A program made the translations under genes and the position numbers. This document shows positions 4,151-41,372 of a stretch of DNA of 41,864 nucleotides, piece by piece. The stretch comes from Saccharicrinis sp. GTDB lineage: Bacteria; Bacteroidota; Bacteroidia; Bacteroidales; Marinilabiliaceae. The stretch's first letter is position 1; each line of letters starts with the position of its first letter. The notes below the pieces were generated by a model. The model did no database searches and was not told where the DNA came from. It worked only from the letters and a program-made list of their open reading frames with translations. Where the stretch lies: the NCBI GenBank assembly GCA_024635555.1, contig JAGXIO010000209.1, positions 1 to 41,864 on the forward strand, in the 5' to 3' direction.

Positions 4151-4192
4151 GCCAGCGGCCACTAGCCATCAGCTATCCGCCAACCGCTACTT
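4151..4192. repeat. Six degenerate heptads of GCYANNN type between rplS and serB
   Basis: Read in 7-bp steps from 4151 the sequence is GCCAGCG, GCCACTA, GCCATCA, GCTATCC, GCCAACC, GCTACTT. Every unit starts GC[CT]A. The last unit overlaps the serB stop at 4187. This is one member of the 7-bp-period intergenic family seen at several places in this window. Confidence 0.6.
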
Positions 4193-7945: not shown

Positions 7946-8140
7946 TTTTGGAGCGTAGGGCGTGGAGCTTGGGGCAAGGAGCTTGGGGCAAGCAAGTGAA
8001 GCGTAAAGAAAAAAAAGAGATAAGAAAAGGAAATAAGGGAAATAAAAAACAAATTTGCCCCTTGCCCCTTGCACAACATACTCCTTGCTCCTTGCCCCAC
8101 GCCCCTTGCGCCCTACTCTTTACCCTTGCTCCCCGCAAAA
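7946..8140. repeat. Heptad-repeat spacer with two facing (inverted) arms
   Basis: Immediately after the DUF255 stop, 7-bp units run from 7946: TTTTGGA, GCGTAGG, GCGTGGA, GCTTGGG, GCAAGGA, GCTTGGG, GCAAGCA. A purine-rich linker at about 8000-8050 follows, then the complementary type of unit (8055-8136, words like TTGCCCC and CTCCTTG). The two halves pair: TGGGGCAAGGAGC (7970-7982) is the exact complement of GCTCCTTGCCCCA (8087-8099), and GTAGGGCG (7955-7962) that of CGCCCTAC (8109-8116). A transcript would fold into one long imperfect hairpin. Open frames across it are artefacts of the repeat. The rest of the spacer to 8304 holds the pyrG -7 element only. Confidence 0.75.
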
Positions 8141-23384: not shown

Positions 23385-24299
23385 ATGCAAAAACTATTTT
23401 CAATTATCTTCATCACCTTTTTTTGTGCTGCAACTATCTCAGCACAAAAAGTGATTCCACTTTGGGAACAAGGACAAATACCCAACTACAAAAAATCGGA
23501 TGGCCAGGAAAAATACCCTGAAAGAAATATTTTTTATATTGAGAACGTGCAAGAACCCACGCTGGAACTATATACCCCCTCCGAGCGAAATGCCAATGGA
23601 ATGGCCGTGTTAATATGTCCGGGTGGTGGATACCATGGATTGGCCTACGATTGGGAAGGAACAGATTATGCCAAATGGTTTAACAGCATGGGCATTACTG
23701 CTTTTATTTTGAAATACCGAATACCAACAGCCGAGTCGGTAATTATAAGTTATAAAGCACCCATGCAGGATGCTCAAAGAGCCATACGTTATATCCGTAC
23801 GAATGCTGACAAATACCACTTAAATACCAACAAAATAGGTATTATCGGTTCTTCGGCCGGAGGACATTTGGCCTCTTCGCTGGGCACACATTATAACGAG
23901 GATTTTTACGTGGGGAAAGACCCCCAGGACACCATCAGTTGCCGCCCCGATTTTATGATGCTCATTTACCCTGTTATCAGTATGCAAGATAACATAACCC
24001 ACGGCGGCTCTCGTAAAAATCTATTGGGTGAAAATCCCACACAGGAATTAATACACAAATTTTCCAACGACGAACAGGTTGACGAAAATACACCACCTGC
24101 ATTTATCCTTCACTCGGGCGACGACCCTGCCGTGCCCGTAGAAAATTCAATAAGAATGTATCAAGCTCTGGTAAAAAACAAAGTTGAAGCTACAATGCAT
24201 ATCTATCCTAAAGGTGGGCATGGCTTCAGTTTGGGTATCAACAATAAAAATGCACCTAACTGGACTCCCGTAGCACAAGAATGGCTGGAGGGGCTTTGA
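23385..24299 (+). CDS. Secreted alpha/beta hydrolase (acetyl-xylan-esterase-like)
   Basis: The 304-residue protein has a signal peptide (1-20, ending TISAQK) and an alpha/beta hydrolase domain of the BD-FAE/Aes type. CPGGGYHGL (79-86) forms the oxyanion loop, S157 in GSSAGG is the nucleophile, D246 or D247 in HSGDDPAVP is the acid, and H279 in KGGHGF is the base. Close relatives are annotated as esterases of plant cell-wall sugars or misannotated as xylanase XynB. Activity on acetylated or feruloylated sugars is inference. No polysaccharide-utilisation genes surround it. A 23-heptad repeat tract begins at the base after its stop codon, followed by a shared terminator. Confidence 0.85.
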   Translation: MQKLFSIIFITFFCAATISAQKVIPLWEQGQIPNYKKSDGQEKYPERNIFYIENVQEPTLELYTPSERNANGMAVLICPGGGYHGLAYDWEGTDYAKWFNSMGITAFILKYRIPTAESVIISYKAPMQDAQRAIRYIRTNADKYHLNTNKIGIIGSSAGGHLASSLGTHYNEDFYVGKDPQDTISCRPDFMMLIYPVISMQDNITHGGSRKNLLGENPTQELIHKFSNDEQVDENTPPAFILHSGDDPAVPVENSIRMYQALVKNKVEATMHIYPKGGHGFSLGINNKNAPNWTPVAQEWLEGL

Positions 24300-24460
24300 G
24301 CAAGGAGTAAGGGGCAGAGACCAGGGAGCGTGGGGCAGGGAGCGTGGGGCGGAGAGCGGAGAGCGGGGAGCGAAGAGCGGAAAATGAAAATGATGATTAT
24401 AGGATTAAAAAGATGAATGGATTAGTTAATTAGTGACTTGGGGACTGAGGACTGATTACT
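24300..24460. repeat. 23-unit heptad tract between the hydrolase and gyrB
   Basis: The tract starts at the base after the stop codon and keeps one 7-bp register for 161 bp. The first twelve units (24300-24383) are GCNNRGA-like: GCAAGGA, GTAAGGG, GCAGAGA, ... GCGTGGG, GCAGGGA, GCGTGGG, GCGGAGA twice, GCGGGGA, GCGAAGA, GCGGAAA. After six AT-rich, unclear units the last units (24419-24460) are GGATTAG, TTAATTA, GTGACTT, GGGGACT, GAGGACT, GATTACT, still in register (24433 minus 24300 is 133, or 19 times 7). Confidence 0.8.
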
Positions 24461-24476
24461 TTTCATTAACGCATAA

Positions 24477-24510
24477 AAAAACCGTCTCCAAATAAATAGA
24501 GACGGTTTTT
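24477..24510. terminator. Bidirectional terminator for the hydrolase and gyrB
   Basis: AAAACCGTCTC (24477-24487) pairs with GAGACGGTTTT (24499-24509) around an 11-nt loop. A's before and T's after make it work in both directions, between two convergent genes. Confidence 0.92.
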
Positions 24511-35365: not shown

Positions 35366-35449
35366 GCGGAGAGTGTGAAGCGGAGAGTGTGAAGCGTGGA
35401 GCGTGGAGCAGAGAGCGGAGAGCGTGGAGCGAACAGCGAACATCGGAAA
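35366..35449. repeat. 12-unit heptad tract between divergent genes
   Basis: Units of 7 bp in one register: GCGGAGA, GTGTGAA, GCGGAGA, GTGTGAA, GCGTGGA twice, GCAGAGA, GCGGAGA, GCGTGGA, GCGAACA twice, TCGGAAA. The same GCNNRGA word type is seen at 7946 and 24300. Unlike those, this tract lies between two gene starts (35173 minus, 35534 plus). The rest of the 360-bp spacer is AT-rich without a clear promoter. Confidence 0.8.
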
Positions 35450-39611: not shown

Positions 39612-40307
39612 ATGAGCGATAAAAAAAAGGTTTTTATGGTTGAAGACGACCAAAACTTTGGTACCGTTATGAAATCCTACCTCGAAATAAACGGTTTTGC
39701 CGTAACCTGGGTGAAAGATGGAGCCAATGCCCTCAAAACCTTTTTAACAGGCCATTTTGATATTTGCATCCTTGATGTAATGCTTCCTCATGTGGACGGC
39801 TTTACCATAGGGCGCGAAATAAAAGCCAAGGAAGAAGACATCCCTATGATTTTTTTAACGGCTAAAACACTTAAAGACGATGTATTACAAGGCTTTGGTA
39901 TTGGTGCCGATGATTATGTGACCAAGCCTTTTGACTCGGAAATTTTAATTGCTAAAATAAATGCCATCCTCAACCGGAGAGCCAACAGAGATGATGAAAA
40001 CACCCAGACACATTTTCAGCTGGGACGTATTGAGTTTAACTTTGAGCTGCGCACACTTACCTCACCAGGCAATATTGAGCAGCTCTCGCCAAAAGAAGCC
40101 GAGCTATTAAGGATGCTCGCCCAATATATAAACAGGGTGATGCCGCGCGAAAAAGCCCTCGATAAAATATGGGGCGAAAACAACTATTTCACCACCCGTA
40201 GCATGGATGTTTATATCACCAAACTACGTAAATACCTGCGCGCAGATTCCCGAATAGAGATAGTAAATATTCATGGTAGTGGGTATTTGCTCAAATTTGA
40301 AGAGTAG
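39612..40307 (+). CDS. OmpR-family response regulator
   Basis: The 231-residue protein has a receiver domain (about residues 5-120) with the acidic pocket E11/D12/D13, phospho-acceptor D55 in CILDVMLP, T83 in FLTAK and K105 in TKPFD, and a winged-helix DNA-binding domain (about 132-230) with LSPKEAELLRMLA and SMDVYITKLRKYL. It is the cognate partner of the histidine kinase 90 bp upstream by position and type. Targets are unknown. The divergent secreted-protein gene at 36870 is a candidate. A 24-unit heptad tract starts at the base after its stop codon. Confidence 0.93.
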   Translation: MSDKKKVFMVEDDQNFGTVMKSYLEINGFAVTWVKDGANALKTFLTGHFDICILDVMLPHVDGFTIGREIKAKEEDIPMIFLTAKTLKDDVLQGFGIGADDYVTKPFDSEILIAKINAILNRRANRDDENTQTHFQLGRIEFNFELRTLTSPGNIEQLSPKEAELLRMLAQYINRVMPREKALDKIWGENNYFTTRSMDVYITKLRKYLRADSRIEIVNIHGSGYLLKFEE

Positions 40308-40475
40308 GTAGCTGATGGCTGTTAGCGGTTTGCTTATATGGCAAGTGAGGATTGGTGATTGGTAGTGATGAGGGTTTGAAGTTTAAAGTTTAGGGTAAGG
40401 AGCGTGGGTTGTAAAGACCGACAGAGAAACTGATAACTGTTTACTGTTTACTGTTTACTGATAACTGTTTACTGA
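40308..40475. repeat. 24-unit heptad tract filling the spacer after the response regulator
   Basis: From the base after the stop codon the spacer is exactly 24 times 7 bp, ending three bases before the stop of the convergent gene at 40479. Word type changes along the tract without losing register: GTAGCTG, ATGGCTG, TTAGCGG at the start; GATTGGT twice at 40350; GAAGTTT, AAAGTTT at 40378; GGAGCGT at 40399; and a clear array TAACTGT, TTACTGT, TTACTGT, TTACTGA, TAACTGT, TTACTGA at 40434-40475. Confidence 0.8.
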
Positions 40476-40478
40476 AAA

Positions 40479-41372
40479 TCATTCCTCAACAGCAACAATA
40501 TTTTCCATACGGCTATTCATATCCGAACTTAAACCCATAATTTTAAAAATCTTGGTTATACGCAAACTACTATTGAACAAAGGAATTCGATATCTTCCAC
40601 TCAGCATGTAAGCTTTATTGCCTTGCACCAATATTTCAACGGGCATCGAAGTTATACAATCTACCCCCATTAAATCTATCATTTGCTTATCGAGATTATT
40701 CTTACCATTAAAAGAAACACCAAAAACGGTAATCTCCTTGTCATGAAAAGCCAATTCGTAAACAAGTTGGCTTTTGGCTAAGCCTTTTAATAGATTATTC
40801 TTAATGGTGGCCACCGCTTCTAAATATTCATCAAATTCATTGAGTTCAATCACATCTTCGTAACGAGGCATGGTAGGCAAAAACTGATAATCCTTTAATT
40901 CTTCATTGGGAATATCCCTTCCATAATACTCCATTTTGGTTAGTAAAGGCAGCAAAGCATTTTTAACCAAAGAATCGGTTAAGGAAGTCATTTCTAGTGC
41001 TTCGTCCTTATTAGTACCTCTACCAAAATAAGCCTGGTTAACATAGTAGGGATTCAGAAGAGTTATATTGGTTGTGGTACCTTTACTTATAAATCCAATT
41101 TTTAGCATGGCACCAAAAGCACCTTTGTCTGCCACACTTGTAGCCATACTGGTTAGCTCATCGCATGTAAAAACAATAACTCCTAAATTTTTATTGCCAT
41201 CGGGATGATACATTCCCAACACTTCAAAATCCGACTTCAACAGTAATTTTGTTACCTCAGCCGTTAAAACGCCCATCGTTTTATTCGATTCGCCCATCCA
41301 ATAATAAGGCTGGATAGCCTTTATTGACAAAACAAATACTATCAGAACTATGGTAGTAAAAAACCTCTTCAT
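40479..41372 (-). CDS. Exported protein of unknown function
   Basis: The 297-residue protein has a signal peptide (about residues 1-19, FFTTIVLIVFVLSIKA). The mature protein is mixed alpha/beta, with VLTAEVTKLLLKSDFEVLGM and YHPDGNKNLGVIVFTCDEL near the front, resembling the general style of DUF302-like or small-molecule-binding domains. I do not assign a family. No lipobox or membrane helix appears beyond the signal. It stands alone, convergent with the response regulator gene across the heptad spacer, and about 130 bp from recQ. Confidence 0.6.
   Translation of the reverse strand: MKRFFTTIVLIVFVLSIKAIQPYYWMGESNKTMGVLTAEVTKLLLKSDFEVLGMYHPDGNKNLGVIVFTCDELTSMATSVADKGAFGAMLKIGFISKGTTTNITLLNPYYVNQAYFGRGTNKDEALEMTSLTDSLVKNALLPLLTKMEYYGRDIPNEELKDYQFLPTMPRYEDVIELNEFDEYLEAVATIKNNLLKGLAKSQLVYELAFHDKEITVFGVSFNGKNNLDKQMIDLMGVDCITSMPVEILVQGNKAYMLSGRYRIPLFNSSLRITKIFKIMGLSSDMNSRMENIVAVEE

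Follow-up and report, generated by a model that had tools for sequence, protein, structure and literature searches.

The tract analysed here lies at positions 40308 – 40475 of a 41,864-nucleotide stretch of a Saccharicrinis sp. draft genome (contig JAGXIO010000209.1; the window), between two convergent genes. To its left is an OmpR-type response regulator of 231 aa (39612 – 40307, plus strand; Pfam Response_reg and Trans_reg_C), and to its right an ORF of 297 aa (40479 – 41372, minus strand) that matched no Pfam family at E 0.001. The tract starts directly after the response-regulator stop codon (40305 – 40307) and ends 3 bp short of the stop codon of the next gene (40479 – 40481, minus strand), both as given in the initial annotation; it is thus flanked by two stop codons and lies outside genes.

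The 7-bp period of the tract was confirmed. Identity at lag 7 was 0.54 (z 7.4 against 500 dinucleotide shuffles) and 0.23 – 0.31 at lags 5, 6, 8 and 9, with multiples of the period also raised (lag 14, 0.46, z 5.3; lag 21, 0.41, z 3.3; lag 28, z 2.5). The description of the tract as 24 units in one register that never slips was overstated. By block, lag-7 identity was 0.62 (40308 – 40335), 0.43 (40336 – 40349), 0.57 (40350 – 40370), 0.62 (40371 – 40398), 0.24 (40399 – 40426) and 0.81 (40427 – 40475); since the fifth block is aperiodic, the tract is two heptad arms around a non-periodic middle and not 24 units. A segment scan divided it in two as well (40303 – 40396 and 40428 – 40474). Adjacent units agreed at 0 – 7 of 7 bases, with words changing along the length; 6 of 23 adjacent pairs matched at just 0 – 2 of 7, and in part of the tract a common register is undefinable because the words there do not match.

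The left arm (40308 – 40398, plus strand; lag-7 identity 0.43 – 0.62 by block) consists of drifting words such as GTAGCTG, ATGGCTG, GGCTGAT, GATTGGT and AAAGTTT; GGAGCGT is also among the left-arm types. Read away from the response-regulator gene, its plus strand is rich in G and poor in C. The right arm (40427 – 40475, minus strand) carries ACTGATA/ACTGTTT heptads on the plus strand; read outward from the minus-strand gene it is CAGTAAACAGTTATCAG, with words of the type CAGTAAA/CAGTTAT. Outward base counts were G 42, C 8, AG 12 and CT 3 for 40308 – 40419 (plus strand); for 40420 – 40475 they were AG 7 and CT 2, yet G 8 and C 10, and the right arm is not G-rich. The middle stretch (40399 – 40426), with lag-7 identity at background, is a possible junction between the two arms.

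Folding of 40308 – 40478 (plus strand) gave z -0.41, with 68/200 shuffles equally stable. This leaves the RNA fold proposed for the tract unsupported, and an RNA hairpin was rejected as its function. Rfam 15 gave no match at gathering score in the window. A role of the edge words as stop-codon caps (ACTGATA carries stops) was dropped by reasoning, since other edge words have stops on both strands or none.

Four other tracts named in the initial annotation were likewise heptad (lag-7 identity 0.53 – 0.66). One, at 7949 – 8136, has complementary arms (GGAGC/GGGGC left, GCCCC/GCTCC right) that would form a long hairpin; folding of 7946 – 8140 gave z -4.2, with 0/200 shuffles equally good. Two are GAGC-type tracts on the plus strand: one lies between convergent genes (24298 – 24390, by segment scan), in a spacer that also holds a terminator-like inverted repeat with a T-run at ~24475 – 24510 (by reading), and one lies in a divergent spacer (35366 – 35449). 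The fourth is a short GCCANNN tract (4151 – 4189, minus strand) at the right edge of a convergent spacer, entering the end of the called ORF by 3 bases.

Period-7 DNA was then counted in a sample of 18% of the source genome (G000; 5,325,806 bases in 259 contigs), made up of set A (566,735 bases, taken by contig index) and set B (387,211 bases, chosen partly from own-genome matches to the tract). A simple six-frame rule served to call ORFs, which leaves start sites approximate. In the noncoding DNA of set A (93 kb, threshold 16), 16 tracts were found at lag 7 and 16 at lag 14, as against 0 – 3 at the remaining lags 4 – 13, 6 at lag 15, 5 at lag 16 and 0 – 0.4 in shuffles; set B gave 20 at lag 7, 20 at lag 14 and 10 at lag 15. 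These counts bear out the suggested genome-wide class of intergenic DNA with period 7, which goes beyond a few microsatellites. The share of spacer DNA involved was small: heptad tracts made up ~2% of noncoding bases in set A (1,812/93,004), and mean noncoding lag-7 identity was barely raised (0.294 against 0.288 – 0.289 at lags 6 and 8 in set A; 0.305 against 0.287 – 0.289 in set B) because tracts are a small fraction of spacers. Coding DNA of contigs C1 – C20 had no lag-7 excess (0.2617, against 0.2583 – 0.2614 at lags 4, 5 and 8).

Several words recurred by eye between spacers of the source genome (ACTGATA/ACTGTTT, GGAGCGT/GGGGCAT, GCTATCA/GCCATTA, TTTAAAG/TTTAGGG and TAATCTC), and a search of that genome with the tract returned 21 further matches, all to query positions 118 – 168 (40425 – 40475). 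Some tracts of this genome have a period of 8, or of 15, which fits alternating 7 and 8; 15-nt tracts at L062, L040, L053 and L069 (e.g., TCTCTTATCTAATAG) may be built of such alternating steps. One 9-kb region of contig C38 (L059:4203-13239) holds five dense heptad tracts, several with inverted arms, and has almost no syntenic match in the congener G005.

Across the phylum, ACTG repeated four times at period 7 was present in 116/296 genomes, at period 6 in 25 and at period 8 in 12; in the source genome, matches at periods 7, 8 and 6 numbered 122, 0 and 0 (overlapping matches included). The reversed word GTCA occurred at period 7 in about a quarter of phylum genomes (read from the listing), which makes the period more general than the word. 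Within one genus (g99), period-8 ACTG arrays outnumbered period-7 arrays in G082 and G172, and G164 and G183 had only period 7; unit length may therefore be lineage-specific. An exact 25-mer of this vocabulary was found in at least 118 stretches of named genomes, of which 80 loci were kept (the named loci; several are from the same species, and the two arms of one spacer were counted separately). Among the matches listed, the hosts were Bacteroidota, many Cyanobacteria, and metagenome bins of other phyla (a Thiotrichaceae bacterium, Anaerolineae, Pirellulales, Victivallales and Gracilibacteria); all matches outside Bacteroidota and Cyanobacteria were metagenome bins, where binning errors are possible. 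ACTG/CAGT arrays lay in spacers in 126/157 cases at the named loci (31 at locus ends, 0 inside ORFs), in 19/20 cases in the source genome (1 inside an ORF) and in 9/11 cases in congeners (1 inside an ORF, 1 at an end). An origin by chance or assembly artefact could be entertained for a draft of 259 contigs, and is extremely improbable given the z score of the tract, the excess in the genome sample and like arrays in other assemblies, isolate genomes among them.

The convergent pair of response regulator and 297-aa gene was found in seven congeners; in an eighth (G001) the 297-aa protein had no match. At this locus the tract is restricted to the source species and its closest relative, G005, where the response regulator is 93% identical and the spacer is similar in length and also heptad (lag-7 identity 0.47; best lag-7 segment 31.4, against 31.9 in the source genome). 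The other six congeners with the gene pair have spacers of 8 – 84 bp without a heptad tract (scores ≤6.1, two of these spacers being too small to score). By eye, the right end TTTACTGATAACTGTTTACTGA is common to the two heptad spacers, most left-arm words differ, and the G005 spacer has a period-8 patch (GATTAAAT). In a global alignment that included some flank, 0.76 of ungapped columns matched, with 11 gaps of 1 – 5 bases and none of 7. Changes of length and of words were seen between these congeneric species; gain or loss of whole units was not directly seen, as there was no 7-base gap. Among 42 orthologous spacers of the two genomes, 37 were tract-free in both, 3 had a tract in both, 1 in the source genome only and 1 in G005 only; further spacers were too diverged to serve as insertion tests. 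The window tracts at 35366 and 24300 were present in G005 in changed form, and the former was not seen in congener G006.

An informative gain was in a divergent spacer of L077, where the best lag-7 segment scored 40.1 in G005 and 4.2 – 7.2 in the source genome and seven other congeners, which have no heptad segment. The G005 spacer has ~100 new bases in two arms of unlike word families. The left arm has CAGT words (lag-7 identity 0.62); the right arm, read inward from the right flank, has TTTTGGG, GTTGGGG, TTTAGAG, TTCAAAG and TTTAAAG (lag-7 identity 0.67). Both arms have the G-rich strand running inward (G 10, C 5; G 18, C 1). As the insert is internal to the spacer and abuts no gene, their polarity follows the flanks. 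The window tract shares this two-armed plan, and the comparison of relatives suggests that repeats were added from both sides of the spacer. The G004 version of the same spacer (L385) has a period-9 segment (score 17.1) of AAAGTT-like words in place of the G005 heptads, the remaining genomes having neither. G005 also carries a dispersed repeat of ~155 bases (L075:1976-2130; six near-full-length copies with 82 – 99% identity, and partial ones), which looks like a small mobile element.

Edge polarity was also found in other spacers. At the named loci, ACTG arrays lay nearer the right gene in 105/123 spacer cases and nearer the left in 17/123 (median 8 bases against 155 bases), whatever the gene strands, after exclusion of 31/157 arrays that sat at locus ends and of 3 from long spacers; the counts were 15 against 3 of 18 in the source genome and 9 against 0 of 9 in congeners. 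Within 160 bases of the 25-mer, CAGTNNNCAGT occurred on the left only at 35 of 74 named loci, on the right at 0 and on neither side at 39 (6/80 loci close to a locus end were dropped). Control cores were found at 0 – 3 loci per side; CTGA, whose sequence overlaps ACTGA, was the exception, with 9 on the left and 14 on the right. Independently of the 25-mer, three CAGT units followed by three ACTG units occurred at 26 places (14 genomes) and the opposite order at 2 (2 genomes) (198 phylum genomes each; overlaps merged by hand to distinct places).

The rule is wider than ACTG, since tracts without ACTG/CAGT pairs have a polarity too. Read outward, G exceeded C in 63 and fell below it in 26 of 91 such tracts of the source genome and congeners, and in 42 and 17 of 61 at the named loci; AG exceeded CT in 54 against 32 and in 38 against 15. 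The folded AG/CT skew of heptad spacers was 1.41 in the source genome, 1.65 in congeners and 1.60 at the named loci, compared with 1.03 – 1.07 in their other spacers; a family sample of 20 stretches held only 3 heptad spacers of at least 80 bases, with a skew of 1.03, which did not differ from the 1.07 of its 90 other spacers. By core, ACTG was right-sided (67:7 at the named loci, 12:2 in the source genome, 7:0 in congeners) and TAGA left-sided (10:3 in the source genome); CTGA and AACT had no side preference in the source genome (3:4 and 3:3). Whole tracts at the named loci were not enriched in G relative to other spacer DNA (0.172 in both).

Units resemble near neighbours most. Between distances of 7 and 56 nt, the excess of identity above off-register lags dropped from 0.37 to 0.07 in the source genome (27 tracts), from 0.38 to 0.07 in congeners (21 tracts) and from 0.44 to 0.20 at the named loci (68 tracts); all tracts had been selected by lag-7 score. 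Transitions made up 45.5% of mismatches at lag 7 and 21.7 – 34.6% at lags 5, 6, 8 and 9 (52 tracts). The decay and the transition excess are as predicted by repeated local copying with errors, and decay with distance is not expected of a lattice of selected sites; the statement that slippage or copying cannot explain changing words is accordingly unsupported. Column patterns in the source genome fitted stepwise copying of each unit from its predecessor with uniform error (n = 40). A fixed tetranucleotide core, seen by eye in that genome as TCTANNN and TAGANNN, was rejected, as both column variance and contiguity agreed with this copying chain (mean percentiles 0.46 and 0.49; 40/41 windows).

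Plain replication slippage, in which chance 7-mer duplicates give arrays that grow and mutate and spacer deletion leaves them abutting genes, would account for the decay, the transition excess and the changing length and words. A 2007 survey found heptanucleotides to be the most abundant class of long simple repeat in most of its genomes, and slippage was proposed for them (Mrazek 2007, as summarised in the part of PMC4679880 considered here). Slippage, however, gives no single polarity at both edges, and it leaves unexplained both the inverted arrangement of CAGTNNNCAGT and of CAGT and ACTG units and the G005 insert with its two unrelated word families; nor does the G000 – G005 spacer alignment contain a gap of 7. 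We regard slippage on its own as a somewhat unlikely origin.

Outside the source genome a fixed core may exist. At 20 chosen loci of G136, G171, G206 and G250, exact ACTG cores recurred while adjacent triplets matched at 0.26 overall (0.16 – 0.40 by genome, near chance), the core rate being inflated because these loci were selected by exact cores. Exact cores beside near-random triplets go beyond what copying alone would leave. In a less biased count, the first unit past the gene-ward end kept 3 of 4 core letters in 19/32 arrays (mean 2.22 core letters, background 1.01). A short two-armed array shared by Marinifilum breve and a Labilibaculum MAG (L244/L245), lying between a stop and the next start, was 96% identical with flanks at 73 – 80%, 25 of its 57 bases being fixed by the search; purifying selection on this copy is possible. 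The occurrence of the same 25-mer in distant phyla is likewise not predicted by a copier neutral to words.

These cores and this conserved array favour a selected element, i.e. binding sites or RNA hairpins at gene boundaries that act in termination, message-end protection or translation, as do the strong hairpins of some spacers (7946 – 8140 among them) and the placement of arrays near genes. Among the 61 arrays no more than 40 nt from the 3' end of a gene, 37 begin 0 – 4 nt past the stop codon and 11 overlap it; within 40 nt of a gene start, 30/43 end 2 – 12 nt before the start. Arrays at the named loci were nevertheless spread over convergent, tandem and divergent spacers (22, 80 and 21 of 123) about as in the background (46, 184 and 66 of 296), so that a role linked to transcription is not evident and was rejected; the source genome leaves some room for one, with 0/18 arrays in divergent spacers against a background of 79/439. 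For the tract itself, a fold no better than shuffles and its absence from six of seven congeners with the gene pair also speak against a selected element, which we judge improbable. At this spacer the data lend no support to selection for a hairpin or a binding array; arrays elsewhere may be under such selection. At four loci of G206 and G250 (L327, minus strand; L330, plus; L331, both; L335, minus), the array can be taken to start with the TAG stop codon itself, TAGTNNG preceding CAGT, which looks as though the stop had arisen from a CAGT unit.

A REP- or MITE-like mobile hairpin, its heptad arms spread by a transposase or by horizontal transfer, would fit the fixed CAGT...ACTG polarity, the insertion in G005 and the recurrence of one 25-mer across phyla. 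REP/BIME and MITE families consist of dispersed near-identical copies, and here only the right-arm words recur in the source genome. The four listed G206 loci have triplets that bear no relation to one another, unlike transposed copies; loops vary in length and sequence, and the arms of the G005 insert belong to two families; a mobile element is very unlikely.

Among known heptads, the STRR repeats of cyanobacteria consist of 7-nt tandem units, and the P6b stem of the cyanobacterial tRNA-Leu intron carries degenerate heptads that pair across its arms. Both are cyanobacterial and are likened to the present arrays by their 7-nt tandem units and not by their words. Closer relatives are in print, and the proposal of an undescribed system does not hold for the class (PMC4679880, PMC4692102). 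In the part of their report considered here, Rehm et al. (2015; PMC4692102) described intergenic heptads in Xanthomonas (GGGAATC) and Nostoc 7120 (GGGGA(C/T)T) that are mostly intergenic (89, 93 and 68%), with degenerate Xanthomonas units (GGGANTN), and mentioned a report of Calothrix heptanucleotide repeats. Both show the same edge polarity, Xanthomonas arrays having mean distances of 28 and 160 nt to their two neighbouring ORFs; inverted pairs number 70 and 75 in Xanthomonas and are few in Nostoc, array length and sequence vary between close Xanthomonas species, divergent spacers are under-represented, and function was reported as unknown. The present arrays resemble these in unit length, mostly intergenic position, edge polarity and, for Xanthomonas, distances, as far as that part of the report goes. 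They differ in that each of those genomes uses one G-rich word with quadruplex potential, whereas here, in Bacteroidota, there is a mosaic of many words, mostly without G-tracts (PMC4692102, same part). Such gene-edge heptads read outward on the coding strand downstream of a gene and on the non-coding strand upstream of it. The window tract has this outward polarity, its right arm reading CAGT outward though not G-rich, and no quadruplex word, with just three GGG (40372, 40393 and 40406) and none in the right arm.

MacGregor (2015; PMC4679880, in the portion considered here) reported direct TAACTGA repeats, mostly intergenic, in Beggiatoaceae, Cyanobacteria and five Bacteroidetes. Two of these Bacteroidetes have long TAACTGA arrays in spacers that hold other heptads, and their close relatives have shorter spacers without obvious repeats. 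In the BOGUAY genome TAACTGA lies mostly a few nt upstream of start codons and related heptamers are rare, and translational regulation was proposed. From that portion, these arrays are like the present ones in being ACTG-based heptads and mostly intergenic; they are unlike the window tract in consisting of exact TAACTGA, mostly before start codons, whereas no tandem pair (TAACTGATAACTGA) occurs in 40308 – 40478 and the tract lies between two stop codons. Nor are its units identical or near-identical, as in long simple sequence repeats (Mrazek 2007, as cited in PMC4679880). With a tandem 7-nt period and a position outside genes, the tract belongs among intergenic heptanucleotide repeat arrays; since single-word arrays are published, the kind is known and the present case is its multi-word form. 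No multi-word mosaic or word-independent edge polarity was found in the literature located, subscription papers being mostly outside its scope and absence unproven. Nor was a single polarity rule spanning many words and phyla, a fall in unit similarity with distance, or an insertion of two word families seen in that literature.

The tract looks like the product of iterated error-prone 7-nt copying rather than of conserved function. We tentatively read it, at a probability of roughly 0.45, as filler laid down by such copying in arms that grew inward from both spacer edges and were then joined. An error-prone process would repeatedly copy the preceding 7 nt of the tract, which would let the words drift while the step stays at ~7. 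Each of the two arms would grow inward from one spacer edge, i.e. from one of the two ends of a break or gap, the extended 3' strand being the AG-containing strand, often G-rich and C-poor; the arms would then be joined. What is observed is the period, the decay with unit distance, the restriction to two sister species at this locus, the change of words, the edge position and the polarity; growth at DNA ends, slippage-like copying and a spacer here free of selection for function are what we infer. The end-extension step draws mainly on one insertion, that of G005, and this insertion abuts no gene but is internal to its spacer. Against end joining, L198 and L263 have a terminator-like inverted repeat between their heptad arms, as if the arms flanked an old spacer. 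Against a G-rich-strand rule stand the right arm in the window (G 8, C 10) and whole tracts at the named loci, whose G content (0.172) equals that of other spacer DNA.

The single-word arrays of Xanthomonas, Nostoc and Beggiatoaceae and the mosaic described here may belong to a single phenomenon, in which the nearest spacer edge sets the strand polarity of a 7-nt array regardless of gene direction there. Independence from the direction of transcription speaks for DNA synthesis or repair and not for regulation. With such a rule, the long-standing question of why heptanucleotide repeats abound in bacterial spacers becomes testable. A more specific conjecture, to which we give little credence at present, is a telomere-like repair synthesis in Bacteroidota, and perhaps in cyanobacteria and xanthomonads, in which heptads would be added at both 3' ends of a break before the ends are joined. 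The strands so made would contain AG and often be poor in C, and each unit would be an imperfect copy of its predecessor. If so, many gene spacers would be scars, and the G005 insert, with its CAGT-word arm and an arm reading TTTTGGGGTTGGGGTTTAGAGTTCAAAGTTTAAAGTTTGGG, would be a recent one.
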